The notes beneath the pieces were generated by a model that was given only the letters and a program-made list of their open reading frames with translations, ran no database searches and had not been told where the DNA came from. A stretch of DNA of 64,000 bases, from NCBI GenBank assembly GCA_026075535.2, contig AP026549.1:9734001-9798000 (forward strand), written 5' to 3'. The position numbers and the translations under genes were made by a program. Positions within the stretch are counted from its first letter, which is position 1, and each line of letters starts with the position of its first letter. This document shows positions 7,164-62,978 of the stretch, one piece after another. Source of the DNA: Tricholoma matsutake. Lineage: Eukaryota; Basidiomycota; Agaricomycetes; Agaricales; Tricholomataceae.

Positions 7164-7167
7164 ATGG

Positions 7168-7308
7168 TGGAGACGGCAGATCCATCTCCTATAGCAGAGT
7201 GGTGGATGCTCTAGTGAGAGCCTAAGTGTGAGGACTATGTGCATGTGATCATCTACTGACTATGCAGTCATGTGACTACTGGAGTAGGTGCCCAGACACA
7301 CTACTCCA
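7168..7308 (-). repeat. Element X LTR (3' LTR on the minus strand)
   Basis: A 141-bp repeat. On the minus strand it begins TGGAGTAGTG and ends ...GTCTCCA, so it has TG...CA ends. It repeats 13257-13389 plus 12856-12868. TSD copy ATGG lies at 7164-7167. Confidence 0.8.
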
Positions 7309-7870
7309 TCTGCCCACCTCCAAAAAAGGTGACGTCCTTGTCGCCACAGAAAAAAAAATGCAAAACAATAAGTAGGAATAATATAGACAAAAGAATTCTA
7401 TGGTTGATAAAAAAATAAGACAAGAAAAGGCTCAACATGGTGGTGCCCATCCCAATGCTCGAAGAGCATGACTCAATTCAGCAAGGTGAGGGTCACGATC
7501 CCAGTCAAGCATTGGAACTTGAGGAACAGGTATGGATGCTACTCCAACAGGGGCAACAATGATGGGTTTCCCTGGTCCAACACCAGACGGATGACACCAA
7601 GTGATGAAAGGTTGAGACTGAAGGGGCGGCAGGACTGGATAAAAAAAATTTGGGGACTGCCAAAAAATATGCGGTGGAGCTCATCATTGCCTTGTTCATC
7701 ATCGAAGGGTCCCAAATGGCTGTGGACAGCCTGTCTTCAGACCAGAGATGTCTCTCGGGGGGGTCCTGGGGGCAATAGGTAACGATGCGGCATCATCAGC
7801 CCAGTCAAAATGGGTGGGTACAGGTGTCGAACACAGTGGTGCAGGGCTCAGAAGGGGTGGGACAGGTCCA

Positions 7871-8243
7871 TAGTGTTGCCACTGGCTCAGCCGAGGTTTT
7901 TAAATAAAATGGCTATAGCAGACCAGATAAATTTCTTAAATTCACTAGGATATTTGAGTATATGGACGAGCCCATAAGCCAATGGGTCTTCTGCCAACAT
8001 TATCTGATCGGATCCCCCGTTCCTGACCTATTCACTCAGCTTTGATTTTGAGCCGAGCCATCAAGCCGAATTTTGTTTATTAAATAACTCAGGGACAATT
8101 AATCGGTTCAACTAGTGTCGGCAGACAACCCCTCGGCTTATTAACCCATCCATATGCTCAAATATCTTGGTGAATTTAGGAAATTTATCTGGCAAGTAAT
8201 AGCCATTTTATTGAAAAACCTCGGCTGAGCCAGTGGCAACACT
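7871..8243. mobile_element. Foldback MITE, hAT-like ends
   Basis: A 373-bp element whose arms of about 125 bp are inverted copies. Both ends begin TAGTGTTGCCACTGGCTCAG. The flanks GGACAGGT (7860-7867) and GGACAGGA (8244-8251) form a 7-of-8 match, with three extra bases (CCA) before the left end. TAGTG ends with an 8-bp duplication suggest hAT. It lies inside the Pro-rich part of the element X gene and has no coding capacity. Confidence 0.75.
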
Positions 8244-9572
8244 AGGACAGGAGATGGGGGGTGTGAAACGGTGGCAGCAGGGGGTGCAGGGGGTGGGATG
8301 GTCATTGCCATGCTGTTTTTGTGTAGTTGTTGGTGTTTGCTGGTAACAGATGTTGCAGGTAGTGAAATGGCGTGTTTTTGGGGATCCTGGGGTTGGCTTG
8401 GGGTGTATAGGCAGCGAACAGGGTACATGCAATGAATGGGGGATGTCCCAAGGTGTAAACAATATGGTGGGCGACACAGCAGTGGGGGGTTCAGATGTGT
8501 CGGTAGTGGAAGACGGCGAAATGACTCGTTTACAGAGGATCTGGGGCAGGACAGGTCATGTAGACCATTTCCTGGGCTGGGTGGGGGAACAAGAGGGTCC
8601 AGAGGTTGAGCACGGGGTGTCGACAGGTGTTGATGGCAATGTTAGTGATGCAGCAGGGGTGTAGGACATGGGTGTTGGCAAAACAATTTGTTTTGGGGGG
8701 TTCAGGGGCAAGCTAGGGCTTTGGAACATGTTTCGGGGGTGTTTTGCTGGTTCTGGCTGCATACATCATTGTTCTGGAGCTGCCAATGGTGGTCCTGAGT
8801 TGGGGGATTCAGTCATCATTGACAAACACATCGATGATGACATGGCAGTGCGCTGGGTGTTTCAGAGTGAATGGGGTTCTGGGGAGTGAGTTGGGGAGAG
8901 GTGGGTGCTGTATGAAGCTTCTTAGGCCATTGTTCAGAGTTTGGGGGGGAGCAGGTTTGTTTCATCGAGTAGACAACGTGTTTTCACGAGCACACCTGCT
9001 TGTCATTGCGTAACCTCAGTGCCTGGGCTGTAGATCATTTTTGTACGTCGTTTGGGACCTGGCAATCAGTACATAGAGTCATTTGCATGTTAGACGAGAC
9101 CCAGGTTGTCATTTCCAGAGTGGTTGCAGCAGGCAATGTTGCCGTTGTTGGTGGTAATGTGGCAGTGGCAATGGAAGGCCCAGGATACAAGATAAGGGGA
9201 TGAGGAGCAAGTGGGGGTGCCATAAGTTGGTTAGGGAGTGTGTGCTCGTTTTAGAGGTGCCGTTGTCCATTTTAGAGCTGGGGGAATGCTAGTGGTGGCT
9301 GCTGTTGTTTGTGGTGATGTGGCAGCCTCAAGGGGAGTGCTGGAGTGCATGTTGAGGGTTTTTTTTTTTCTTTTTTTGGATCAGAATTTATAACACGGGG
9401 CTCACTCGCAGTCCATGGGTCAAGATACAAGCAAAGGTACTACTATGACTACACGTTCCCCTCTGCCCACATCCCACACCAGGTCCCTCACAGAAGCCAC
9501 CTTAGGCGGGCAGTTCCACTGACATTGTCCTCTCAGACAGGAAAGGCAAAATTCTGGATGGGGGGAGCACCC

Positions 9573-9960
9573 TGCTGAATACAGTGATGAAACACTTGCT
9601 ACATAGTCCAACAGACTTATTACTATACTTGTTAGATTGTAGATATTATGACTGAAATTCATTTACTTCATATCTCGCTTCATACTATAGCTATTACTTA
9701 GATTTTTGGACCCAGACGTAGGGGGTAATGCAGACGCGATATAGTGGACACCTAGTTTCATGCCTCGTGGTTTCCTGGCACAACAGGAACAAACAAAAGC
9801 GAAATCCTACTATGTCTGGGAAACTGGACATGAGATTGATTTGGATAAAGTGCAATACACATTACTATTCTTAAACCTGTGTTATAAGTGTGTTGCAGAC
9901 AGTTGACTTGAGTTGCTGACTAGTGTTATACACTAGTAGAATTCGTCATAAGCTTTAACA
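9573..9960 (-). mobile_element. Solo LTR, copy 1
   Basis: A 388-bp LTR (on the minus strand TGTTAAAGC...TTCAGCA) with a perfect 5-bp TSD CACCC at 9568-9572 and 9961-9965. The same 388-bp LTR occurs at 12869-13256 and 32902-33289. It is inserted in the 3' tail of the non-autonomous LINE-like element. No internal region of its parent element is in the window. Confidence 0.93.
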
Positions 9961-9965
9961 CACCC

Positions 9966-10389
9966 CCTCTAGATGCTAGCCATGAGATCACCGACTGCTG
10001 CTAGCCCAGTCCCCCCATCCCTATCCAACCAAAGTCAGATTGATGAGCAGTGTCAATTCACTGTAAATCCTCCCTTGCGGGAAGAATAACCGTATTCACT
10101 TTTACAGTCAGCGAGGATTGACCACCCCAGGTGAGTGAGATGGACCATCACTGCGCTTCCGCATGAGTGACAGTGATGAGGCAGCTGGTTGTTCACCTGG
10201 TTATTCACCGGAACTGCCATAGGTAGGGGGCTGGGGCCCCCTTTGAGCAAATGCTGCATAGTGCATGCACTCAATGACAACATCCCCCCCGCAGTGGGGA
10301 GAAGGTGAAGGGAGGTGGCACCTTGCCGCCCTCATGATACCGACCACCAATGATTTGGTGGGCATAGCCATAAAGGGGTGATTCCCTTT
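9966..10389 (-). other. 3' non-coding region of the LINE-like element
   Basis: No ORF is credible here. The stretch aligns on the minus strand with 16920-17340 of copy 2 (words such as ATGCATGCACTCGATGA-like, GGTGAACAACCAG and GGTGGTCAATCC). It is the untranslated region between the acidic-protein ORF and the A-tail, interrupted by the solo LTR. Confidence 0.7.
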
Positions 10390-11220
10390 TCAATTCTGGT
10401 GAGGTTGTCGATGAGGGCCTTGAGGACGACGGCGCTGTGCAGGGGACGAGGGTTCCCCACTTGGAGGCTCTGTCACTGGTGGAGCAGACTGAGCCACCTT
10501 CATCGCCTCATAGGAAGCCCGGAAGGCTGCCAGAGACGTAAGGTCTAGAGGAGCTGACACTGCCCGAAGCAACTCCATCATGCTCTCTGAAAACTGCCAG
10601 GTGGTGGTGAATAGCTCCCATGCCATCTGGTGCCAAGAGTTCCTCTCATTGAGAGGAACCGCGGACACTCGGATGCTACCTATAAATGAGGTCATCATGT
10701 CCAGTATATGCAACATGGCATGAGAGGTGGCTTCGATCTCCAGCCTCTCATCCCTTGATAATGGCACTTCGTCCTCCACCAACTCGGGGATGGGGGGCAA
10801 AGGCGGTGACAGGGCAGGGGATGCCTCCGGATAGAGGAGGTCGGCTATGCTGAGCTCCTGTGAGTACACATCCTCCCATGGGAGGCTGTGGGTCCATTGC
10901 TTGTGCGCGACATCAACACCTTGTGCCCATCATACACAATCGATTGTTTGCCTCGAGGTGGGCCTAGGCCCCCCCTCAGCGTAAATGAGAGCCTCCTGCA
11001 TAGCAAGAGAGTCGTTGTCATCATCATCATCAGGGTCGGAGAGGTCTTCTCCAGCCCACAGATCTCTAACTGCCTTTAATGCAGCTGCTACCTCTGGTTC
11101 ATTCTGTTCAAGCCGGGTGTCATAGTCTTGGGCATCATCGTCAAAGATGTCACCCATGATCAGGGTGGGGTCGTGTAGACCCCGGTGTGGTGGTCGGTCT
11201 CTGGTTTGCTGTTTGGGCAT
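10390..11220 (-). pseudogene. Acidic ORF of the LINE-like element, copy 1
   Basis: Two frames, 11220-10930 and 10869-10390, make up one protein of about 270 residues, split by a frameshift near 10900. The N-terminus has IMGDIFDDDAQDYDT, then VRDLWAGEDLSDPDDDDDND, strongly acidic. The second half has ELSIADLLYPEA, IPELVEDEVPLS, ERNSWHQMAWELF and a basic Pro/Arg tail. It aligns with 16159-16920 of copy 2, so the protein is a real property of the family. I recognise no domain. It is not an RT and lacks a zinc knuckle. It could be an ORF1-like nucleic-acid binding protein or unrelated cargo. Confidence 0.65.
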
Positions 11221-12001
11221 TGAGAGTGAATTAGCGCAAGTAGATGACGGTAGAAGTCAAGATATGTAGCGTGAGATCAATAACAGTTGGTCCCTTCTCT
11301 CAGTTCCAGGTCCACCCGACACAGCCTCCAAACACTCCGAGGGGGTGAGCAGGCCACACATCCTGCTGCCTGGTGGGAGAAGATAGAACCTGGGTCATAC
11401 CACCCCAGAGGAGTGAGCACTGGAGGTAGAGAGATGGTGGTGAGTAGCGGCCACCCAAACATTGTCCTAGCCGTCAGGGGGCACCGTCACCTGGCCCCTT
11501 TTAATGACGGTGTATTCCAAGCAGGTAGTCAGTGTAGCTTGTCCCTAGTAGTAGTAGTGACTCACATAGCAAGGAGGTTGGTGGCACCCAGGCTGACCAG
11601 CAATCCAGTAGGAGCGTCCTCCCCCCTAAGCCAGACCTCCCCCAACTAAGCGAGTGCATCAACTTGGGCGAGCGTTGAAGCAGGCATCCCACACCCACTC
11701 TAAGCCCCCATAGGGACACAGACTACCCTTTCATAGACAACACTCACCTGGTCAGGATCCTCGAAGCCCAGGAGAATGAAACAGATAGCAGTCATTGTTG
11801 GAAACAATGACCGAGACATCCCTGGAGATCGAATGGACGGATCTCTTAGCAAATCAGGCCAGGCCTGGAGATGCCAAGAGCGTTCGTAATGGTGAAATCC
11901 GATCAAAAATCGGATGACAAATGCAGTGTCGACGTCGCGAGCAACATTGAGCAGAGGTATTTACCACTGTTTATGGTGGTTGTAACAAGTCAAGGAGCAA
12001 T
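11221..12001 (-). other. 5' region of the LINE-like element
   Basis: Non-coding 5' part, collinear with 14476-16150 of copy 2 (minus its MITE) and with 1-219 of copy 3. Minus-strand ORFs here do not align between copies in one frame, so I do not call them. It may hold the internal promoter expected of a LINE-type element, but I cannot identify one. Confidence 0.6.
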
Positions 12002-12830
12002 TGCATGTTGAGGGTTTGCATGGCCATTTCAGTAGGTTTGGAAGCAGCTTGTGTGCTGAAGTCGAGGTGGAGTGTCGTCTCCATGTTTTTTGTTGAGGTG
12101 GGGCCTTTGTCATCTAGCGGCTCTGTTTGTTAGGCAGTACATCAATGTTTGGGGGCATCGTTGGTTTGGGTGGCCGTCTTGTCAGTCCTGGGGACTACCT
12201 GGGTGCCAGCATTGCTCCAGGTGGTCGTTTTGGGGTCTGTCTGGATTTCAGCGTCGTCAAGAAGGACAGCGCCTTGCCATAGCTCATGGATGTGGGCCTC
12301 CTTCGAGATGCATAGTCCTTCCCCATGTCCAGCTAGCCTCTCCCCTTCATCGAGACCTTCTTTCTTCCCCATCCTATATCCAGAATTCTTTCCCTTTTTC
12401 CACATCTTCTGTCCATTCTCGAGTATTTTCTCCTTCCCCTCTTTAGTCCTTCTTCTACACCTTCTTCCCATCCATCAAGTCGAGCTTCATCCAAGAGTAT
12501 TTGGACTTCTTCATGCATGTAGGTAAATGGTGGTGGTTGTGGGGTTGCATCATCTGATGACGCGGCAGTGGCTGTGCAGATGCGCATCGCATCATTGGCG
12601 TCAATTGTGGCTGTGGCTGCTGTGTCTATAGTAGCAGACACTGTTGCTGTTGTAATAGCACATGTAGTGGCTGCATTTTTCGTGTTATTATGCCATTTCT
12701 TCTTCTGGTTTCATTTGCCTCCTGGGCCTGGCATACTGGTGGTTGGCAGGTGGCAAGCTAAGGAGCTGGTATACTAGTAGACTGAGGTAGAAAGCTGAGA
12801 GCTCAAAGACAATATCCAAAACTGCATGAG

Positions 12831-12852
12831 TCGAATCACACTCTCATCACCA
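12831..12852 (-). promoter_or_regulatory. Primer-binding site of element X
   Basis: On the plus strand this 22-nt stretch reads like a tRNA 3' end: T-loop part TCGAAT, T-stem CACAC, acceptor TCTCATC, discriminator A, then CCA. The minus strand is thus complementary to such a tRNA, starting TGG three nucleotides inside the 5' LTR. The spacing 7-5-7-1-3 fits a tRNA exactly apart from one T-loop base. The donor tRNA would have the 5' acceptor strand GATGAGA; I cannot say which isoacceptor that is. Confidence 0.72.
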
Positions 12853-12855
12853 AGA

Positions 12856-13389
12856 TGGAGATGGCAGATGTTGAATACAGTGATGAAACACTTGCTGCAT
12901 AGTCCAACAGACTTATTACTATACTTGTTAGATTGTAGATATTATGACTGAAATTCATTTACTTCATATCTCGCTTCGTACTATAGCTATTACTTAGATT
13001 TTTGCACCCAGATGTAGGGGGTAATGCAGACGCGATATAGTGGACACCTAGTTTCACGCCTCACAGTTTCCTGGCACAACAGGAGCAAACAAAAGCGAAA
13101 TCCTACTATGTCTGGGAAACTGGACATGAGATTGATTTGGATAAAGTGCAATACACATTACTATTCTTAAACCTGTGTTATAAGGGTGTTGCAGACAGTT
13201 GACTTGAGTTGCTGACTAGTGTTATACACTAGTAGAATTCATCATAAGCTTTAACAGCGGATCCGTCTCCTATAGCAGAGTGGTGGATGCTCTAGTGATA
13301 GCCTAAGCATGAGGACTATGTACATGTGATCATCTACTGACTATGCAGTCACATGACTACTGGAGTTGGTGCCCAGACACACTACTCCA
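12856..13389 (-). repeat. Element X LTR (5' LTR), split by a solo LTR
   Basis: The right-hand copy of the element X LTR. The solo LTR at 12869-13256 interrupts it. Joined, the two pieces match 7168-7308 closely. The outer end borders gag of gypsy A with TSD ATGG(T) at 13390. Confidence 0.78.
12869..13256 (-). mobile_element. Solo LTR, copy 2
   Basis: A 388-bp LTR, same family as 9573-9960 and 32902-33289, with a 4-of-5 TSD (GCAGA at 12864, GCGGA at 13257). It is inserted in the 5' LTR of element X, so it is younger than X, which in turn is younger than gypsy A. Confidence 0.9.
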
Positions 13390-13393
13390 ATGG

Positions 13394-13990
13394 TTTCAAG
13401 GATGTTGTGGGCCCAGTTCTTCTCCAGGATGAGTTGGGAGAGCTCACCAAGGTATCCATCCAGGGAGAGGGCATCAATCCGAGTTTGGTCAGCTTGGTAC
13501 CATGCCACAAGGTGAGGTTCAAACATGCCCTCAGCAACATTGCTGACAATTTCAGTGTCTGTCTTCCCACCGTGCTTCTTGTAACATTTTCATGCGAGGG
13601 TCCATGATTGCATGATGAGGGGGGTGATTTTGCCGGCAGTGAGCATTGGGCATTCCTTCATCTTGGTGACCTTCACTCCAGCGAGAGGTTGTGTAGAGGG
13701 TGACATTTTGGTTTGGGCAACAGGTGGTGCAGCCCAGTGGATGGTGGTGGTAGGTGTACTTTTTTCAGTGGATGAGTCAGTATCAGTGATTGGTGGTGAC
13801 AGTGGTGGTGATTGGTGAATATGCCAGCACTTTCATCGTGTGTTTGGTAGTGTCTCTAATTCAGCTGGTTGGCCAGAATCCTGCAAGTTTCTTCTCATGC
13901 TCCTGGTGAGGAGTGGGATGAGGGTAGAGGATTGCCAAGACAGGGTTGGTTCGGTAGGTGAAGAAAGTTGTTGATGTCAAAAAAAAAAAG
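13394..13990 (-). pseudogene. Gypsy A gag, N-terminal half
   Basis: The minus-strand frame reads QSSTLIPLLTRSMRRNL, a Ser/Thr/Pro-rich stretch, then MSPSTQPLAGVKVTKMKE at 13706. The capsid text follows: PMLTAGKITPLIMQSWTLA, IVSNVAEGMFEPHLVAWYQ, DALSLDGYLGELSQLILEKN and WAHNILETI. The last words abut the element X LTR. This is the first half of the Ty3-type gag whose second half is at 7163. Two in-frame TGA codons are visible (after NTR and after WTLA), where Arg/Cys-type codons are expected. I recall very similar gag proteins in basidiomycete Ty3 elements. Confidence 0.78.
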
Positions 13991-14475
13991 TGGAAGGATG
14001 CCTAGTTTGGCAGCCTACACTAGACTTAGGTTTACTAAAAGACAGGATCAAATTATCTTCGTTGCATGGAAGTAGGAACCATAAGTTACTACAATTAAAA
14101 GAATAGGAAGCTACTATGCCTTCGTTGCATGGAAGTAGGAACAAAGGTTAAGATATAAAAAATAAGTAATATATAAGAAAAAGATCGACCATGTAAGTAA
14201 AAGGCTGCATCAAGTGTGGTGTGTGATTTGGGAAGGCTGCATTGGGCATAGTCACATAATAGGAAGGTACTGCATCAATAGGATAATGTTGGCACTGCTG
14301 GATGTGGATGGAAGGGTAATAAGGATGTATGGTGCCATTGCCAGGATGCATGTCGCTGGTGTGTTGTTGTCATATTCACCGGTGGCGAGGGTGATTGTGT
14401 CAGTGATGTGTGTGGCTGTGTCGGCACCATGGGAGTGTGTTGGCAGCATAGGGTGGCCATAACTCACTGTAACAT
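13991..14475. other. Segment between gypsy A gag and LINE-like copy 2
   Basis: It starts with an A-run near 13979. Positions 14040-14200 recur in inverted orientation at 17790-17970, including the duplicated word TTCGTTGCATGGAAGTAGGAA here. Minus-strand text at 14148-14462 is rich in Pro, His and Tyr (MHPGNGTIHPYYP) and could be a first exon or 5' leader. I cannot assign it. No LTR of gypsy A was found. Confidence 0.4.
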
Positions 14476-14857
14476 GCTCCTTGACTTGTTACAACCACCA
14501 TAAACAGTAGTAAACACCTCTGCTCAATGTTGCTCACGACATTGACACTTCAATTTATGTCCGATTTTCGATCGGATTTCGCCATCACAAACGCACTCGG
14601 CATCTCCAGGCCTGGCCTGATTTGCTAAGAGATCCGTCCATCCGATCTCCAGGGATGCCCCGGTCATTGTTTTTGACAATGGCTGCTATCTGTCTCGTTC
14701 CCCTTGGCTTCGAGGATCCTGGCTAGGTGAGTGGTGTCTATGAAAGAGTAGTCTGGGTCCCTATGGGGGCTTAGAGTGGGTGTGGGATGCCTGATTCAAC
14801 GCTCGCCCAAGTAGACGCGCTCGTTTAGCTGGGGGAGGTCTGGCCTAGGGGGCAGGA

Positions 14858-15694
14858 TAGTGTTTAAAGGTCCAGTCCGGTCCGGTTTTTGACTTCCAAA
14901 TGGGGCAACCAGCAACCACAACCGGTCTAGGACTGACCCAGATATTGGAGGACCACAACCGGACCCTTTAGGACTGGTCCTAATCGGTCTGTGGACCGAA
15001 AAAAGACTGGTTCGGACCGGTCTTTTGTCGTAAAATTTATCGTGCCAAATAACCCATATGTATCTCAACAAATATGACTATTACCTCATATATATTATAT
15101 TAATAGATAGAGATTGTAATGCTTCGTAGACCGATCCAACATTTAAGCAATTCTGTCAAGAGTTGACTGAGATATGGCCAAAACCGAAAGGACATGCATT
15201 CAAGTTGTGTTTTGTAGTTTGTAATTTGTAGTTTGTAGTTGCATTCATTTGGGAGAATATATGAATAAAATCCCATGGTACAGATGATTAGGTGTGTTGT
15301 TGTTACTTTTATGATGTCATATAGCTGTACAAAAAAAAATATAGCTCAGGTAATAAGCAGTGCAATCAAAGTTGTTCTGATACAACAAAATACTTGTACA
15401 AAAATGTTTTTGGTCATATCTCAACCAATTCTTGACTGTTTTTGATGATCCAGGGACCGAAAATGAAGTAAATATGTGTGGGAGTAAGGTCCAACATACG
15501 TTGGGACGAAAGACTGGTTGCAACCGGTCTTAACCGGTTTTTCATCGGTCCTACTATATTTTTCAAAACGAAAGACCAGCAACTGGACTGAAAAAGACCG
15601 GTCCATAAATAGACCACTGGTCCGGTCCTAATCAGTCCAGTTCAGTTCAGTTTCGGTCTTTTTTCGGTCCTACAGACTGGACCTTTAAACACTA
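14858..15694. mobile_element. hAT-type MITE with 8-bp TSD
   Basis: An 837-bp insert in LINE-like copy 2. It is bounded by a perfect 8-bp TSD GGGCAGGA (14850-14857 and 15695-15702) and by identical 20-bp inverted ends TAGTGTTTAAAGGTCCAGTC. The subterminal regions are packed with GGTCCGGTC-like and AACCGGTCT-like words on both strands. The interior has no coding capacity. An 8-bp TSD, TAGTG ends and subterminal repeats fit a non-autonomous hAT element. Confidence 0.9.
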
Positions 15695-16158
15695 GGGCAG
15701 GACACTTCTACTGGACTGCTGGTCGGCCTGGGTGCCACCAACCTCCTTGCTTTGTGAGTCACTACTACTAGAGACAAGCTACACTGACTACCTGCTTGGA
15801 ATACACTGTCAGTAAAAGGGGCTGGGTGACGGTGCCCCCTGATGGCTAGGTCGACACTTGGGTGGCCGCTCCTCACCACCAGCTTGCTACCTCCGGTGCT
15901 CACTCCTCTGGGGTGTTATGACCCAGGTTCGATCTTCTCCCACCAGGCAACAGGATGTGCGGCCTGTTCACCCCCTTGGAGCATTTGGAGGCTGTATTGG
16001 GTGGACCCGGAATGGAGATAAGGGACCAACCATTATCGATGGCACACTACGTATCTTGATTTCTACCATCATCTACTAGTGCTAACTCACTCTCAATGCC
16101 TAAATGACGCACCAGAGACTGATCTACATGCCAGGGCCTCTATGGCCCCTCCCTATTC

Positions 16159-16920
16159 ATGGGTGACATCTCTGATGATGACACCCTGTACTACGACTCC
16201 CAATCCGAACTAGTCGGACCGGAAGTAGTAGCAGCACGAAAGGAGCTGCGAGATCTGTGGGCTGGGGAGAACCTCTCTGACCCTGAAGATGACGAGGATC
16301 CTCATGCTATGCAGGAGGCCCTTGCTTTCACCAAGAGCAGCCCTAGGCTTGCCTTGAGGCAAACTATCGATCGTGTGCTATGGGCCCAAGAAGTCGTCAT
16401 CGCACACAAGCAATGGACTCGCAGCCTCAAATGGGAGGATGTGTTTTCACAGGAGCTTGGTATCGCTGAGCTCCTCTATCTGGAGGCACCCTATGCCCCA
16501 CCACCGCCTTCGTCCTCCATCCCTGAGTTGGTGGAGGATGAAGTGCTGTTATCTATGGATGAGAGGTTGGAATCGAGGCCACCTCTCATGCCATGCTACA
16601 TCAACTGGATGCAATGACCATGTTTGTTGGTACCATCCGTGTGTCCACCATTCCCCCTGCAGAGAGGAATGCATGGCGCCAAATGGCCTGGGATTTATTC
16701 ATGGCCACCTGGCGATTGTCTGAGACGATGTTGGCAGAACTAGCAGCTGCCACAACACCTCTCGATCTCACATCACTGGCAGCCTTCTGAGCTTCCTACG
16801 TGGCAATGCAAGCTGCTGAATCAGAGCCTCAATCTGGGGAACCCTCGTCCCCAGCACGGCACCATCGTCCTCAAGGTCCTCATGGACAGCAGCGCCGCAA
16901 CTAGAACAGGGGCCTACCCC
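16159..16920 (+). pseudogene. Acidic ORF of the LINE-like element, copy 2
   Basis: The frame 16159-16617 begins MGDISDDDTLYYDSQSELVG, continues RDLWAGENLSDPEDDED and TIDRVLWAQEVVIAHKQW, and shows IPELVEDEVLLSMDERLE. A 1-bp shift near 16575 moves the text to 16593-16790 (FVGTIRVSTI, ERNAWRQMAWDLF, LDLTSLAAF). A TGA then interrupts before a basic Pro/Arg/Gln tail (about 16920). The same protein is encoded at 11220-10390. Copy 2 keeps the central part KQWTRSLKWEDVFSQE that is frame-broken in copy 1, so the two together define the family protein (about 270 aa). Function unknown; no RT motif. Confidence 0.68.
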
Positions 16921-17542
16921 TCTACACTCATGCCTACCAAGTGACTGGTGGCCATTGTCAGGACAGTGACATTCTGTTGCTACCCTATACCTTCCCCCTG
17001 CTGTGGGGGGGATGATGTCATCGAGTGCATGCATCTGCTAGCATTTGCTCGAGGGGGGCCTTGGCCCCCTGCCTATGGTGGTTCTGGTGAATAACCAGGT
17101 GAACAACCAGGTGAACAACCAGCTGCCATGTTACTGTCACTCGTGCATGACACAGTGATGGTCCACCTCATTCGTCTGGGGTGGTCAATCCTTGTTGGCT
17201 GGAATTACGCAGATGGTTATTCCTCCCACAAGGGGATTTATGGTGAATTAACACTGCTGCGCCTGATCTGACCTCGGTTGGATATGTGGCTGGGGGACTG
17301 TTTTGCTCCAGTGGGCGATCTAATGGCTAGCTTCTGGAGGGGGGGGGGCCCTCTAGATTATTGCCTTTCCTGTCTGAGGACAACATCAGTGGCCCGCTTG
17401 CCTAAAGTGGCTAAAACGAGGACCTGGGTGGGGGATGGGTGAGGGGAATGTGTAGATATAGTAGTACCCAAGTTTGTACCCCGCTCTGCAGACTGCATTT
17501 GAGCCCCGCATTATAAATTCTGATCCAAAAAAAAATAAAAAA
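16921..17542 (+). other. 3' UTR and A-tail of LINE-like copy 2
   Basis: About 620 bp without a credible ORF, ending TTATAAATTCTGATCC plus A-tail. The last 80 bp resemble the end of the Tad1-like LINE at 29060-29150 (shared words GACTGCATT and CATTATAAATT in the same order and spacing). Confidence 0.7.
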
Positions 17543-17949
17543 CAAGGGAGGTCCTTATTGTCCAATCGGAAAGATAGATGCATATCAAGTAAGAATAGAA
17601 ACAATAAGCCTCATGCCTAGCATGAGGCGTCCAATGTCATGGACCTCATGTCAAAGGGCTGTGGTATCACAGCATGTGTGGGAATGGGTTTGGGTGCATA
17701 GAGTCACCATGCATCAAGGGTGCCTTCCGTGGGAAGGGGATCTCATGAGTTACAAGGAAAATTGTAACAAAACACACACTTGCGCCTGATGCCTTTTACT
17801 TACATGGTCTGAAGTTCACCTATATACCTTTTATTTTCAACAACCTAACCTTTATTCCCACTTCTGTGCAACAAAGGTATACATTATTTTCTCCTCTATT
17901 TTTACTTGTATTAACTTATTGTTCCCACTTCTGTGCAACAAAGATAATT
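17543..17949. other. Non-coding stretch with an inverted copy at 14040-14200
   Basis: No ORF is supported. Positions 17790-17970 repeat 14040-14200 in inverted orientation (GCCTTTTACTTACATGGTC and two ACTTCTGTGCAACAAAG-like words about 57 bp apart). A short palindrome, CATGCCTAGCATG, is at 17612. The origin is unknown; it may be a remnant of another element. Confidence 0.4.
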
Positions 17950-31479: not shown

Positions 31480-31925
31480 TTAAAACTGGATGTGCATGAT
31501 GTTCATATTTGTGAATGAATGATCAGCATCATGAAAAAGAGAGAAGCTGCCATGAAAGGTGCTGCAACATGATTAAGAGCCAGGGTGAGCGATGAACCAG
31601 ATGTGCATGACATTCATATTAATGAACAAATGGTCAGCATCATGAAAAAGAGAGGAGCTGCCATGAAAGTGCTGCAACACAATTAAGAGTCAGGGTGAGT
31701 GATGAACCAGATGTGCATGATGTTCATATTTGTGAATGAATGGTCAGCATCATGAAAAAGAGAGGAGCTGCCATGAAAGGCACTGCAACACAATTAAGAG
31801 TCAGGGTGAGTGATGAACCAGATGTGCATGATGTTCATATCTGTGAATGAATGGTCAGCATCATGAAAAAGAGAGGAGCTGCCATGAAAGGCACTGCAAC
31901 ATGATTAAGAGGTAGCATGAACAAT
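31480..31925. repeat. Minisatellite, unit about 112 bp
   Basis: About four units starting at the word GATGTGCATGA near 31488, 31600, 31710 and 31824. Each contains AATGGTCAGCATCATGAAAA and AGCTGCCATGAAAG. The tail 32030-32130 has a further degenerate unit. No ORF spans it. Confidence 0.85.
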
Positions 31926-32530
31926 AAACTAATTCCTATGTACCATGTGAAGACAAACTTGTTGCCTCCATATGGTTCCAGCCAATCAGCCCCATTTGAA
32001 TGGAAAAGCAGGAACTGGATGTGTGCCATATTCAGATGCGTGAAGGAGCAATCATCTTGTGAACAAAAGAAGAGCTGCCCTGAGAGGCACTGCAGCCTAG
32101 AATCATGCATTAATCAATATTAAGAATTAGCATGAGCGATAAATCAGCCAATCCCTGCATACCATCATACAAGTCCATTTTCCAGCTTGAAACAGGCTTG
32201 AACTTCAGGACCCTCAGACTCATGGCAAAGTTAACAGAGTTAGTAAAAGTGCCTGCCAATGCAGTGGACATAGAGATGCTGGTAGAAGGAGAAGAAGAAA
32301 TGGACCATGACAGGATACTGGAAGAAGAAAGAGTTAGAAGTCCAACTTGCAGTTGAAAGTTGAGCTTGAACATTGAACTTGAAGGTTTGAACTTCAGACT
32401 CAGATCTGATTCCAAGTCTGAGTCAACTGAAGTTCTCTGACTCAGAGTCACACCATGACTCACAACTTAAACTTCTGAATTTGCTACTGGATTGTAGTAT
32501 AAACTTGAACATGTCTACTTCAACTCAGTA
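31926..32530. other. Unassigned stretch
   Basis: No supported gene. A plus-strand ORF (32132-32356, MSDKSANPCIPSYKSIFQLE) is short and not recognised. Repeated GACTCAGA / GAACTTGA words occur from 32340 to 32720. Confidence 0.35.
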
Positions 32531-32901: not shown

Positions 32902-33289
32902 TGTTAAAGCTTATGATGAATTCTACTAGTGTATAACACTAGTCAGCAACTCAAGTCAACTGTCTGCAACACACTTATAACACAAGTTCAATAATAGTAA
33001 TGTGTATTGCACTTTATCCAAATCAATCTCGTGTCTAGTTTCCCAGACATAGTAGGATGTCGCTTTTGTTTGTTCCTGTTGTGCCAGGAAACCGCGAGGC
33101 GTGAAACTAGGTGTCCACTATATTGCGTCTGTGTTACCCCCTATGTCTGGGTCCAAAAATCTAAGTAATAGCTATAGTATGAAGCGAGATATGAAGTAAA
33201 TGAATTTCAGTCATAATATCTACAATCTAACAAGTATAGTAATAAGTCTGTTGGACTATGTAGCAAGTGTTTCATCACTGTATTCAACA
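32902..33289 (+). mobile_element. Solo LTR, copy 3
   Basis: A 388-bp LTR (TGTTAAAGC...ATTCAACA) with perfect TSD CCAAA at 32897-32901 and 33290-33294. Same family and same length as 9573-9960 and 12869-13256. Confidence 0.94.
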
Positions 33290-35464: not shown

Positions 35465-36480
35465 TGTCAGTCAGTTTGTCATTGACGTTGCAGACTCACA
35501 ACTGAAATTTTGAAGCGCGTGCTGTATATGCTGTGGAGGTCCTGAAACATGGTCGTCATGGATGTTCCCAACTCACAAATGAAATTTTGTAGTGAGTATT
35601 GTATGCACTGTCAGTTCGTCATTGATGTTGCAGACTCACAACTGAAATTTTGTAGTCCATGCTGTATATGCTGTAGAGGTCCCAAAACATGGTCATCATA
35701 GATGTTCCAGACTCTAGTGAAATTTTGTGGTGAGTATTGTATGCACTGTCAGTTCGTCATTGACGTTCAAGTTGCAGACTCACAACTGAAACTTTGTAGC
35801 GCATGCTGTATATGCTGTAGAGGTCCCAAAACATGGTCATCATAGATGTTCCCAACTCACAAATGAAATTTTGTAGTGAGTATTGTATGCACTGTCAGTT
35901 CGTCTTTGACGTTGCAGACTCACAACTGAAATTTTGTAGTGCATGCTATATATGCTGTAGAGGTCCCAAAACATGTTCATCATAGACTTTCCAGACTCAC
36001 AAATGAAATTTTGTAGTGAGTATTGTGCACTGTTAGTTCTTCATCAATGTTCCAGACTCACAACTGAAATTTGGTAGTGCATACTGTGTATACTCAATTT
36101 TGTAGTGAGTATGTGCTGCACAATTCCTCAACGACATTACAGATATACAAGTAATTTTATAGTGAGTACAGTGCATGTTGTAAATTTACTCAGAGACATT
36201 CTGGACTCATTAATCAAAATTTGTAGTGAGTACATGCTGCACAATTCATCACTGACATTACAAATATACAAGTAATTTTATAGTGAGTATGGTATGTGCT
36301 CTCCATTTCTTCATAGACGTTCTGGACTCATGAATCAAATTTTGTAATATGTACTTGCCAACCAATTCATCACCGACGTTACGGATGCACATGTAACTTT
36401 GTGGTGAGTATGGTACGTGCTGTACATTTGTTCATAGATATTGCGGACTCATGGATTAAATTTTATAGTCAGTATGTGCT
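35340..36480. repeat. Tandem array of about 140-bp units derived from hAT transposase
   Basis: At least five units (for example starting near 35357, 35500, 35639, 35784 and 35922) share CAACTGAAATTTTGTAG, TGCTGTAGAGGTCCC, AACATG and GTGAGTATTGTATGCACTG. The first unit is coding in the transposase frame (minus strand, FRDLYSIYSMRYKISVV), so the array arose by amplifying that exon with its neighbouring intron-like sequence. Units right of 36050 are shorter and more divergent. Confidence 0.8.
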
Positions 36481-42899: not shown

Positions 42900-44430
42900 G
42901 TTGAAGCAGAGTAAAGCGGGGTGAAGAAAGGTAGTACAGCACTATAGTGTGGCGCAGGGTAAAGAAAAGTGAGAAAAGGCTAAAGCAGGCCGAAGAAATA
43001 GGCTAAAGCAGGGTGAAGAGGGATGGGAGAGAGTGAAGCGAGATGGGAGAAAGGTAGGAACAGGGTGAAGCAGGATGAAGAGAGATAGGAACAGGATGAA
43101 GCACCATGAAGAGAGAATGAAGCAGGTTGAAGCAGGTTGAAGCAGGGTAAAGCAGGTGAAGAGAGGTAAAAACAAAAAGGTAGAAAAGGTTGAAGCATGG
43201 CAAGAACAGGGTGGAGAGAGGTAGGGAATGGGTAAAGCAGAGTAAAAAGAGATAAGGACAGGGTGAAGTAGGAAGAAAAAAGGTGAAGCAGGTAGAAACA
43301 GGGTGAAGCAGGTAGAAAAACAGACAAAGCAGATAGAAAAGGGTGGAGCAGGTGAAGAGAGGTAGAAAAGGTTGGAGCAGGTAAGAACAGGGTGGAGAGA
43401 GATAGGCAGGGTAAAAGCAAGTGAAAAGGGATAAGAACAGGGTGAAGCAGGGGTAGAGAAAGAGTGAAGTAGGTAGAAAAGAGTGAAGTAGGTAGAAAAG
43501 AGTGAAGTAGGTAGAAAAGGAGTGAAGTAGGTAGAAAAAGAGTGAAGTAGGTAGAAGCCAGGTAAAGCAGGTGAAGAGAGGTTGAAGCAGGTTGAAGCAG
43601 GTAGGAAAAGGGTGAAGCAGGTGAAGAGAGGTAGAAAACAAAAGGTAGAAAAGGTTGAACCAGGCAAGAATAGGGTAGAGAGAGGTGGGAAAGGGTAAAG
43701 CAGAGTGAAAAGAGATAAGGACGGGGTGAAGTAGGAAGAAAAGGTGAAGCAGGTAGAAACAGGGTGAAGCAGGTAGAAAAACAGGTAAAGCAGATAGAAA
43801 ACAAGGTGGAGCAGGTGAAGAGAGATAGAAAAAGATTGGAGCAGGTAAGAAAAGGGTGGAGAGAGGTAGGCAGGATGAAAGCAAGTGAAAATGGATAAGA
43901 ACAGGGTGAAGCAGGTAGAAAAAGGGTGAAGCAGGTAGAAAAAGCATGAAGCAGGTAGAAAAACAGGGTGGAGCAGGTAGAACAGGGTGAAGCAGAGTGA
44001 AGAGTGGGAGGAACAGAGTGAAAAAGGTGAAGACAGGTAGGGATGGCTGAAGCAGAGTGAAGAAAAGGTGGGAAAGCTGAAGCAGAGTGAATAAAGGTTA
44101 GGAATGAACTGAAGCAGAGTGAAGAAGGGCTGAAGCAAGGTGTAGAGTGAAGACAGTGAGGAATGGCTGAAGCAGAGTGAAGAAAGGTAGGAAAGGCTGA
44201 AGCAGAGTGAAGAAAAGGTAGGAATAAACTGAAGCATAGTGAAGAAGGGCTGAAGCAAGGTGAAGAAAAGATAGGAATAGGCTGAAGAAAGGTGTAGAGT
44301 GAAAACAAGTAGGAATTGCTGAAGCAGAGTGAAGAAAAAGGTAGGAAAGGCTGAAGCAGAGTGAAGAAAAGGTAGGAATAAACTGAAGCATAGTGAAGAA
44401 GGGCTGAAGCAAGGTGAATAAAAGATAGGA
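42900..44430. repeat. Polypurine minisatellite (GTGAAGCAGGTAGAAA-type)
   Basis: About 1.5 kb of short tandem units, such as GTGAAGCAGGTAG, GAAGAGAGGTAG and GGGTGAAG, almost purely purine with scattered T on the plus strand. Unit length drifts from about 16 to about 50 bp. A higher-order duplication joins 43100-43400 to 43560-43860. The right part (43980-44430) uses units like GCTGAAGCAGAGTGAAGAAA. Confidence 0.92.
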
Positions 44431-59517: not shown

Positions 59518-60560
59518 TCATCATTCCCTGAAGCATAACCCCACCCACAACCACCCACAACCTGGCACAAACTTACTTATCAAATATCATTTCTCAGACT
59601 CGTCAACATTTGGAGGTGTGTGGCTGTCACTATATTGCTCCGAATCCCTTGAGACGTTCAACACCCAAACACAAACTATATTCTTCGAAACAACTTGAGT
59701 GTGGAATTGCTTCGATTGCTAGTACCTACTTCAACTATGGGTATGGGTCCGCTTTCTTTTTCTCTTTCTTCCGCTCAACTAAAGTAAAGCAATTGTGCTT
59801 ACTTCCTCAAGTAAACCAGTGACGGTGGCACACATCTTCCCTTCCAGGTTCCCAGCGAAGTATGCCTCATCAGAATCAGAATGAAGTTTTTTTCGAAAAT
59901 TTCGTAACTTTGAAGGCATTAGGTGGCTCGAAGCCAATTCCTTTACCAGGGTCATGGTGATTCTACTGTAATTATTGTCTGAAGGTAAAGAAAACAAATA
60001 CAGTTGCCCAAAACTAAGAGAACTATCATGCGCAGACTGTCAAAGGTATTGAAACAGGTAAGTTGTGTATCTAAAGGTCAGGGTATAAGAAATTTTTACC
60101 ACGTCTATACATTATCTCTCCAAGAAACCTGCTATGCATGGCCACTTTCTGCCACCAGTAATCTGGGAATCGTCGGGGAAAAATAAATATATGATTGTGA
60201 TAATGGACAACGATGGACTTTGCATTGAATTCAGGGCATCTTTGGAATGTGATGAGCATGATATGGATTGCGTAGTGTATTGCCACCTACAAAAACCGCT
60301 GACTGAACTTGTGGTCATACTTCAATAGAAGGGTGTGCACGTACTGCCCCAGTGATGGTGGAGGTGTATTGGAATTGGCCTTGGCCATGTAACATTGTTG
60401 AGGTGTAGCCATGTAACTCCCGCATTTCGTATATTGAGATACCTGGTGCTATGGTTGGGAGGACCACGGGAGCGGCAGGAGGGGCAAGGTGGGTGAAGTT
60501 ATGTGTGATAGTGAAAATGATTGGTGATAAAAAGCCATTGATAATGGCAAAAACATAAAC
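59518..60560. other. Host sequence left of the foldback element, possible gene on the minus strand
   Basis: No gene is certain. Open minus-strand frames include 59997-59779 (MTLVKELASSHLMPSKLRNF), 60286-60071 and 60566-60315. Open plus-strand frames include 59610-59822 and 60134-60328. If the foldback element and one AGT are removed, two minus-strand frames run across the site. One joins VCVIPGT to VYVFAIINGF. The other starts MTSELQTILRDLDTSSLSVL and continues into hydrophobic LFMFLPLSMAF. One of these may be the 5' exon of a gene divergent from the one at 62979, but I cannot decide which. Confidence 0.35.
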
Positions 60561-60563
60561 AGT

Positions 60564-62702
60564 CACTGGGTGCAGGGCACAATACCCCTGATGGGGTATT
60601 ATGTAAGTATCTTGGAAGTATTCCTAATACTGTCAAGATACTAGCCCAGAAGTATGTTGCCAGTATGCTGATTGTTGATTACCATACGTCCACATTAGTA
60701 ACTTGTACATATTGTAACTGTATTCTGAATGTCTTGGCTGAAAAATAATACAATATTTCCTCCCTACTATCACAATAATATTAAGATACTTCTAATGGAG
60801 TATTGAAGTTAAAGATCAAAATATTTTTCAAGTACTGAGAAGGCAGTAACTTGGTGGTATTGAGGTAATTTCTTCAGTACTACCAAGATACTATCTACAA
60901 TACTATCAAGATGATATCACAATACTTTGCTTGGGATATGTTAGCAATATGATGGAAAAGATCTAGAAAACCTCTGTGTCAGTATGCTTGAAATATCATG
61001 GAAGTACACAAACAAAAAGAGTAGTCATGCACCTCATACCTTCACCATACTAAAGCCAGGGAATATTGGAAGTATTGAAGTGTTGTTTATTCAATACTGT
61101 CAAACTACTCTATGGGAAGTATATAAGAAGAAATTTGATAAATTGGAAAAGTATTATTAGCAGATGTCTGCACATGCAGGTCTGCTGTTGCAAGTATCTA
61201 CTTCCATGTCTGAGTACCTACATGTCCACTGGCAGGTATCTACTCAGGTACTCACTTGCACATCCAAGTTGTATGTCCAAGTACTTACTCAAGTACTTAC
61301 TGGCACCTATTTGAGTACTGACTAGTACTTGCCAGTGCATATCCAAGTACTTACTCAAGTATCTACTGGAACCTATTCAAGTTTGAGTACTTACTTGTAT
61401 ATCCAAGTACCTACTTGAATGTCCAGGTATCTACTCAGGTACTTACATTCATCCAAGTTGTATGTCCAAGTACTTACTCAAGTACCTACTTGCACCTATT
61501 GGAGTACTTACTTGCATATCCAAATACCTACTTTATATCTACCTGCATGTTCAGGTATCTACTCAAGTACTCACTTGCACATCCAAGTACTTACTCAAGT
61601 ACCTGCTGGTACCTATTTGAGTACTTATTTGTATATCCAAGTACCTACCAGTGGTTATTTGAGTATTTACTTGTATGTCCAAGCAGTGCCTACTAGTTAG
61701 TATCTAGATACCTGAACATGCAGGTAGATATAAAGTAGGTATTTGGATATGCAAGTAAGTACTCCAATAGGTGCAAGTAGGTACTTGAGTAAGTACTTGG
61801 ACATACAACTTGGATGAATGTAAGTACCTGAGTAGATACCTGGACATTCAAGTAGGTACTTGGATATACAAGTAAGTACTCAAACTTGAATAGGTTCCAG
61901 TAGATACTTGAGTAAGTACTTGGATATGCACTGGCAAGTACTAGTCAGTACTCAAATAGGTGCCAGTAAGTACTTGAGTAAGTACTTGGACATACAACTT
62001 GGATGTGCAAGTGAGTACCTGAGTAGATACCTGCCAGTGGACATGTAGGTACTCAGACATGGAAGTAGATACTTGCAACAGCAGACCTGCATGTGCAGAC
62101 ATCTGCTAATAATACTTTTCCAATTTATCAAATTTCTTCTTATATACTTCCCATAGAGTAGTTTGACAGTATTGAATAAACAACACTTCAATACTTCCAA
62201 TATTCCCTGGCTTTAGTATGGTGAAGGTATGAGGTGCATGACTACTCTTTTTGTTTGTGTACTTCCATGATATTTCAAGCATACTGACACAGAGGTTTTC
62301 TAGATCTTTTCCATCATATTGCTAACATATCCCAAGCAAAGTATTGTGATATCATCTTGATAGTATTGTAGATAGTATCTTGGTAGTACTGAAGAAATTA
62401 CCTCAATACCACCAAGTTACTGCCTTCTCAGTACTTGAAAAATATTTTGATCTTTAACTTCAATACTCCATTAGAAGTATCTTAATATTATTGTGATAGT
62501 AGGGAGGAAATATTGTATTATTTTTCAGCCAAGACATTCAGAATACAGTTACAATATGTACAAGTTACTAATGTGGACGTATGGTAATCAACAATCAGCA
62601 TACTGGCAACATACTTCTGGGCTAGTATCTTGACAGTATTAGGAATACTTCCAAGATACTTACATAATACCCCATCAGGGGTATTGTGCCCTGCACCCAG
62701 TG
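60564..62702. mobile_element. Foldback element, CACTG ends, 999-bp inverted arms
   Basis: The arms 60564-61562 and 61704-62702 are inverted copies with exact symmetry of coordinates (no indel) and no mismatch in the parts I compared. The central loop is 141 bp. The ends read CACTGGGTGCAGGGCACAAT and the flanks show a 3-bp TSD AGT (60561-60563 and 62703-62705). CACTG ends with a 3-bp duplication are typical of CMC/EnSpm-type transposons, so this looks like a non-autonomous foldback member. The inner arms carry about 30-bp tandem repeats (AAGTACTTACTCAAGTACCT). The mirrored ORFs at 61066-61314 and 61952-62200 are by-products. Confidence 0.9.
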
Positions 62703-62705
62703 AGT

Positions 62706-62978
62706 GCCAGGGATAACACAGACAAGCTGGACGTATCCAGGTCCCGCAGGATGGTTTGTAATTCCGATGTCATGACGTTCGGCCGCCAGATGGTGGTAGC
62801 TTACAGAGCCGATGAAAGGCATAATGAAAAACTGAATTTTTTTTTCCAGTAATCTAATCGGTTACTTCGAAGTCGATTGCAAACATGGAACAATAGAGTC
62901 AGCCACATTCGGACCACCACATCAAAGCTCTTACCTGTTCGTATTATCATAAAACGCGGTGTCGAACGTAACTAACCC
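62706..62978. other. Upstream region of the spliced gene
   Basis: It holds the possible divergent ORF start on the minus strand (ATG at about 62772, MTSELQTILRD) and a short AT-rich stretch (62823-62870). No TATA box is obvious. The bases directly before the 62979 start codon read CTAACCC. Confidence 0.4.

Follow-up and report, generated by a model that had tools for sequence, protein, structure and literature searches.

Non-autonomous long terminal repeat (LTR) retrotransposons are usually described as noncoding elements (i.e., terminal-repeat retrotransposons in miniature [TRIMs] and large retrotransposon derivatives [LARDs]) or as gag-only remnants. TRIMs are noncoding elements with LTRs of about 100 to 250 bp and a total length of <4 kb; LARDs are larger, and their interior is likewise noncoding. 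Here, we describe an LTR retrotransposon (designated X) found in a 64,000-nucleotide stretch of the genome of Tricholoma matsutake (GenBank assembly GCA_026075535.2, contig AP026549.1, positions 9,734,001 to 9,798,000 of the forward strand; the whole stretch is referred to as the window). We estimate a probability of roughly 0.7 for our reading as a whole, in which X is a decayed member of a non-autonomous LTR retrotransposon family that is present in many copies in this fungus and has a trans-acting protein of its own. That X is a non-autonomous LTR element is close to certain, and the single gene that it carries is very probably owned by the element and under selection.

Three LARD families have been reported for Laccaria bicolor (PMC3411680). 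The TR-GAG elements of plants (Chaparro et al. 2015, cited through PMC10552921) are non-autonomous LTR elements with a non-pol open reading frame (ORF). Among the Ty1/copia elements, the Gag (i.e., the capsid protein) of Sireviruses interacts with the LC8 family (PMC2829016). Some LTR elements of bdelloid rotifers reportedly carry ORFs in addition to the usual ones (PMC5408684). The retroelements of T. matsutake itself include marY2N and marY1, the latter a gypsy element of about 6 kb with 426-bp LTRs (PMC10211490, PMC10627285), and 40.9 Mb of repeats in a T. matsutake assembly were left unclassified (PMC10211490).

The X family shares with TRIMs its short LTRs (141 bp), a total length of 2,349 to 3,939 bp in nine LTR pairs, a retained primer binding site and an imperfect polypurine tract (PPT), and a probable need for a helper; unlike TRIMs, it has a long ORF that is conserved and constrained. 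Like LARDs, it is non-autonomous and bounded by LTRs, but its interior is 2.1 to 3.7 kb long (nine pairs) and consists largely of the gene. By its coding interior, the family is neither TRIM nor LARD, and an earlier note on the window, which had proposed a TRIM/LARD-type element, is not supported on this point. The ORF differs from that of TR-GAG elements in lacking a recognizable gag domain (a TR-GAG-type nature of the family has a low but real probability; see below), and the member proteins scanned have no Pfam pol match, which separates it from autonomous Ty3/gypsy and Ty1/copia elements. The Sireviruses are autonomous, whereas the X family is non-autonomous by the tests made, and LC8 binding in the X family is suggested by a motif. 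As published, marY1 differs from X in size and LTR length, and the ORFs of the rotifer elements differ in being additions. Searches of an open-access library yielded no paper that, judged by its title or the beginning of its abstract, describes the X family.

Anatomy of the window copy

X lies on the minus strand and spans positions 7164 to 13393 of the window. Its features are as follows (identifiers starting with P denote related proteins from metagenomes; those starting with L denote loci).

7164..7167, no strand: target site duplication (TSD) copy 1, ATGG
7168..7308, minus: 3' LTR of X, 141 bp, TGGAG...CTCCA
7309..7329, minus: imperfect PPT region, TTTTTTGGAGGTGGGCAGA, adjoining the 3' LTR; the nine further pairs have a comparable tract in this position
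7431..9361, minus: 3' part of the gene very probably X's own, decayed; ALRALGWAPPC near 7435; holds the MITE-like insert; C-terminus homologous to those of P0008, P0016, P0022, and P0025
7871..8244, no strand: nested inverted repeat like a miniature inverted-repeat transposable element (MITE), 162-nt arms, 80% complementary, ends GTGTTGCCACTGGCTCAGCCGAGG; in the 3' part of the gene
9362..12017, minus: poly(A)-ended insert Z, splitting the gene of X; 15-bp TSD
9573..9960, no strand: solo LTR Y1 inside Z, 388 bp, TSD CACCC
12018..12734, minus: 5' part of the same gene (MPGPG..., YMHEEVQILLDEARLDGWEEGVEEG), decayed; tblastn with P0008 (locus L035)
12831..12852, minus: primer binding site, TGGTGATGAGAGTGTGATTCGA, which pairs at 21 of 22 nt with the tRNA-Leu(AAG) 3' end plus CCA
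12856..12868, minus: inner piece of the 5' LTR (TGGAGATGGCAGA), severed by Y2
12869..13256, no strand: solo LTR Y2 within the 5' LTR of X, 388 bp, TSD gcaga/gcgga with one mismatch
13257..13389, minus: outer piece of the 5' LTR
13390..13393, no strand: TSD copy 2, ATGG

In minus-strand orientation, the parts follow one another as TSD, 5' LTR, primer site, gene (from 12734 to about 7431), PPT region, 3' LTR, and TSD. The two LTRs align over 136 nt with 93% identity (124 of 133 nt identical in another comparison), and the pair differs at 8 of 128 compared sites. The nested insertions account for about 3.4 kb of the 6.2-kb span; with these removed, X proper is about 2.8 kb long, which agrees with the lengths of the nine further pairs. 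The earlier note had recognized direct repeats of about 140 bp with TG...CA ends and a 4- to 5-bp TSD, and both descriptions hold. The other parts that it named are present in a modified form: the primer site fits the tRNA 3' end at 21 rather than all 22 nt, the purine tract adjoining position 7308 is interrupted by one T and one C, and the hypothetical, non-pol protein gene is not the only one in the span, since a second ORF is located inside insert Z.

X is inserted in the gag gene of a gypsy element, and the left flank of the insertion has at least 39 close copies (best 40 of 78 candidates scored, window included). All six gypsy paralogues that were fetched carry the empty site, with a single ATGG between the aligned left and right flanks, which identifies the insertion as a clean one. 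Together with the LTRs and the TSD, these empty sites support the earlier proposal that a small LTR retroelement, whose single gene is not pol, interrupts gag. Its removal had also been said to restore the gag frame exactly. By arithmetic, the left-flank ORF (codon start 7153) and the open right-flank frame (codons ending 13392) are indeed in the same phase across one copy of the TSD; however, the right flank contains stops in the gag frame upstream of the insertion site, and the statement thus holds for the reading phase only.

LTR pairs and gene-LTR linkage across the genome

From a search with the LTR, the best 40 of 352 candidates were scored, and 20 stretches were fetched (8 evident pairs and 12 around single matches). 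Ten LTR pairs were read, including that of the window. Their LTRs are 79 to 100% identical to the window LTR, and they begin with TG and end with CA except where damaged (the 5' LTR of the window copy is split, L025 has lost an inner end, and the outer 3' end of L011 is cut). A perfect 4-bp TSD flanks 8 of the 10 pairs, which is more than chance, given an expectation of 1 in 256 per pair; of the other two, L011 is cut at its 3' end by a further insertion, and L015 has a mismatched TSD. Since the divergence between the LTRs of a pair ranges from 1.6 to 7.4%, the insertions probably differ in age.

The family anatomy consists of a 141-bp LTR, the tRNA-Leu(AAG) primer site, a leader of about 130 to 290 nt, the single gene, about 120 to 165 nt ending in the PPT, and the second LTR. 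The start codon lies about 130 to 290 nt past the 5' LTR in 8/10 pairs with recognizable ends (Y2 discounted in the window copy), and the stop codon lies 121 to 166 nt ahead of the 3' LTR in 9/10 pairs. The tract beside the 3' LTR (i.e., GGAGGTGGGCAG or GGACATGGGTAG-like) is conserved and follows a run of T, although it is not purely purine.

The 20-mer that joins the LTR end to the primer site occurs 291 times in the genome at ≤2 mismatches, and the reversed pattern does not occur. Linkage counts rest on the 100 exact junctions listed, which are located on contigs C1 to C6. At 61 of these junctions, a gene match follows downstream in the same orientation at a distance of no more than 3 kb (no more than 500 nt at 44 and 1 kb at 54), while the opposite strand gave 1 and five shifts of the positions gave 0, 0, 0, 0, and 2. 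Conversely, an exact junction lies upstream of 61 of the 128 distinct gene loci on C1 to C6 and upstream of none after four shifts; this proportion is a floor because only exact sites on these contigs were counted. The gene searches score the best candidates only, and the gene counts are accordingly lower bounds. In a run with a single gene query, the linkage count was 23 of 51, with 1 on the opposite strand and 0 after five shifts.

Loci first seen as single LTR matches gave a similar picture, 10 of 12 carrying the gene in the expected position and orientation; the other two (L021 and L023) are 3' LTRs that retain only the 3' end of the element. No gene was scored at 39 of the listed junctions, and we read 8 of these (4.5 to 10 kb each). 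Five hold the gene (L049, L050, L051, L053, and L056, in the last of which it lies beyond a nested gypsy element), and three hold the leader only (L052, L054, and L055). The nested gypsy element (L056 387-786 and L057 1658-2057) has 400-bp LTRs and the TSD CAGTC and sits between the leader and the gene of another family copy. The earlier note had staked its proposal beforehand on whether the gene is flanked by the repeat of about 140 bp with TSDs, and in this genome it largely is (61/100 junctions, 61/128 gene loci, and TSDs at 8/10 pairs).

The gene and its protein

The longest stop-free stretch in the ten pairs measures 395 amino acids, and the search tables report longer open frames at further loci. 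Identities of the gene copies in the genome range from 33 to 100%. A first search of metagenomes returned 24 relatives and a second one 6, amounting to 28 proteins altogether, and P0008, P0016, P0022, P0025, P0026, and P0027 (484 to 754 amino acids) are open from the initial M to the C-terminal motif. The conserved features of the protein are a Gly/Glu helical stretch, TQT motifs, WAEDAESLP, RDLS, and the C-terminal LDWDxDPRLxDLSxALRALGW. The N-terminus is of at least four kinds, i.e., the MPGPGQGK type, the L012 type, the P0026 type (L011, L031, L033, L049, and L053), and that of P0027.

Twelve member proteins were scanned against Pfam, and no match to gag, protease, reverse transcriptase, or integrase was obtained. 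A subthreshold likeness to Yae1_N falls on the Gly/Glu stretch (best score, 25.5 bits against a curated cut-off of 27.5, in P0016; E = 1e-05), and PF09811 is assigned to P0016 and P0018 in the precomputed table of the protein database. In the AlphaFold model of P0008, the Gly/Glu stretch and the C-terminus form helices. Foldseek gave no match for P0008 and no convincing one for P0027. Six loci from a scan of viral contigs, which matched in or around the Gly/Glu repeat, were judged to reflect low-complexity likeness.

In alignments of other elements to four stop-free ORFs used as rulers, codon position 3 differed most in all four cases (0.32, 0.36, 0.22, and 0.30, versus 0.12 to 0.28 at positions 1 and 2), the four alignments sharing sequences and therefore not being independent. 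The noncoding leader, used as a control, showed the reverse order (0.25, 0.21, and 0.17 at positions 1, 2, and 3). Position 3 was also the highest in each of four single pairs (P = 0.004, 0.037, 0.081, and 0.26). This pattern fits a gene that was constrained while the element spread and that decayed neutrally after insertion. The evidence points to a gene that is the element's own rather than a host passenger, and it disfavors the term "cargo" that the earlier note had used.

Primer site and search for a helper

With introns allowed, ARAGORN identified an intron-bearing tRNA-Leu(AAG) gene in L039; with the bacterial code, it found no tRNA in L029 to L034. The primer site fits the tRNA-Leu(AAG) 3' end at 16 to 21 of 22 nt over 23 loci, 11 of which had been picked through the junction or primer pattern. 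The first 12 nt are exact in 8 of the 12 loci picked independently of these patterns. At none of the eight junctions read among the 39 without a scored gene was there a sense gag-pol belonging to the element.

Two stray primer matches were considered and rejected. The only exact match to a 16-nt tRNA-complementary primer lies inside an ORF that is at least 115 codons long and closes about 95 nt beyond the match, and it is thus not a primer site beside an LTR. A 21/22-nt match in L038, where ARAGORN found no tRNA gene, was rejected as the primer site of a gypsy-like element, since a tandem array lies next to it and the element is situated about 3 kb away with direct repeats of its own, 5.2 kb apart (L042, 9.9 kb). 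The array (L042 8502-8956) advances in steps of 21 nt, or of 14 nt at certain joints, comprises 16 registered copies, and lies beside a tRNA-Leu-like 3' end.

TQT motifs and a proposed mechanism

TQT-type motifs are a known form of LC8-binding site (PMC3078936, PMC7861614). In an alignment of seven proteins, three of the six invariant columns fall in two QT sites, and the TQT motifs lie in a region of low pLDDT that is predicted to be disordered. At least one [TI]QT occurs in all ten element pairs (all three frames counted). Across whole metagenome proteins, the excess of TQT is strong in some and absent in others; P0008 has 5, compared with 0.89 expected, a number reached in 0 of 1,000 shuffles. 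The dynein-light-chain domain PF01221 has one match above the cut-off in the genome.

From these features, we tentatively suggest that the protein is an LC8 adaptor, a role that we consider possible but doubtful. The element RNA would be transcribed from LTR to LTR, packaged, reverse transcribed from the tRNA-Leu primer, and integrated in trans by the Pol of a helper. The gene product would be the element's own trans-acting protein, most likely an adaptor or scaffold composed of a lineage-varying N-terminus, a Yae1-like Gly/Glu helical repeat, a disordered TQT stretch, and a conserved C-terminus. It may oligomerize through the helix and LC8 and help the element RNA into, or along with, helper particles, much as in the Sirevirus Gag-LC8 interaction. 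We think that the family works like a helper-dependent satellite.

Alternative explanations

The region is rich in nested insertions, and the gene and the LTR might be unrelated repeats that became adjacent through nesting. The strand and order are nevertheless fixed (61/100 junctions, against 1 on the opposite strand and 0 to 2 after shifts), and the gene is enclosed by ten LTR pairs, eight of them with matching TSDs; the linkage and the LTR pairs refute this explanation. LTR elements can capture genes, which is a known phenomenon, and a captured host gene carried as a passenger would agree with the absence of similarity to gag or pol and with the weak likeness to a host family (Yae1_N, just under the curated cut-off at best; PF09811 tabulated for P0016 and P0018). 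Against it, no copy was shown to lie outside the element among the minority of copies whose flanks were read, the gene occupies most of the interior, and it is widely diverged within one genome yet constrained at the codon level, whereas decay is to be expected of a recently acquired passenger. We regard capture as quite improbable.

A very diverged Gag deserves more weight than capture, although we still consider it unlikely. Under this explanation, X would be a TR-GAG-type element without pol, and its protein would form or join particles. The gene occupies the position of gag, directly after the leader. P0027 has a helical N-terminus (helices within residues 2 to 76) that looks capsid-like by eye (WWDDL...W..F...RW) and is fused in register to the usual C-terminus, and an interaction with LC8 is known for Sirevirus Gags (PMC2829016). 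However, Pfam gag was found neither in the 12 member proteins nor in the P0027 N-terminus at E ≤ 10, while a real gag in L056 scored 1e-07 in the same search. The C..C....H....C knuckle is present in 0 of the 28 metagenome relatives, fold searches against the PDB gave no convincing match for either model, and a search with residues 1 to 80 of P0027 returned P0027 alone.

Several observations weigh against our own reading of X as a copy of a family with an element-owned, selected gene and an adaptor-like protein. When 5 kb was allowed, one shifted control linked 4 of 100 junctions, and the 67 of 128 gene loci without a listed exact junction leave room for copies that lack LTRs. Many genomic copies of the gene contain stops, and the codon excess reaches 0.05 in only two of the four single pairs. 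The two AlphaFold models are mostly of low confidence (mean pLDDT, 53.8 and 46.1). The [TI]QT counts of the element pairs were reached by 14 to 273 of 500 local shuffles, with some motifs off-frame. The match to the tRNA is good over about 12 nt and variable beyond (16 to 21 of 22), and a helper was not found among the stray primer matches and the 8 of 39 gene-less junctions that were read.

Other repeats in the window

Z is present as two inverted copies (9362-12017 on the minus strand and about 14475-17545 on the plus strand), both ending in poly(A) and one with a 15-bp TSD. Its ORF (MPKQQ...MGDIFDDD...LRDLWAGE) is not an obvious reverse transcriptase. Z may be another non-autonomous retroelement that carries its own gene, and it is perhaps related to marY2N. 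The 388-bp solo LTR (TGYTGAATACAG...TTTAACA) occurs at 9573-9960, 12869-13256, and 32902-33289 with 95 to 97% identity and 5-bp TSDs at the first two sites, one of them mismatched. An inverted repeat at 60560-61561 and 61705-62706 (1,002 nt, 100% complementary, 143-nt spacer) could be very recent or an assembly artifact. Tandem arrays are located at 31484-32001, 36096-36458, and 44027-44420, with units of about 111, 121, and 120 nt, respectively.

Significance

In its widest form, our proposal is a class of satellite LTR retroelements that have given up gag and pol and in which a selected adaptor uses host LC8 to load the element RNA into the particles of another element. The N-terminal module would be swapped, perhaps per helper; such elements would be common among soil fungi and would account for many agaric "hypothetical proteins". 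This generalization is speculative, and we consider it unlikely. Through the conserved motifs, the proposed mechanism lends itself to direct tests. Mushroom gene models of the X family may be transposon genes and should then be masked. A constrained gene without recognizable gag or pol, carried by a high-copy family, suggests that proteins able to exploit a helper can evolve within parasitic elements themselves.

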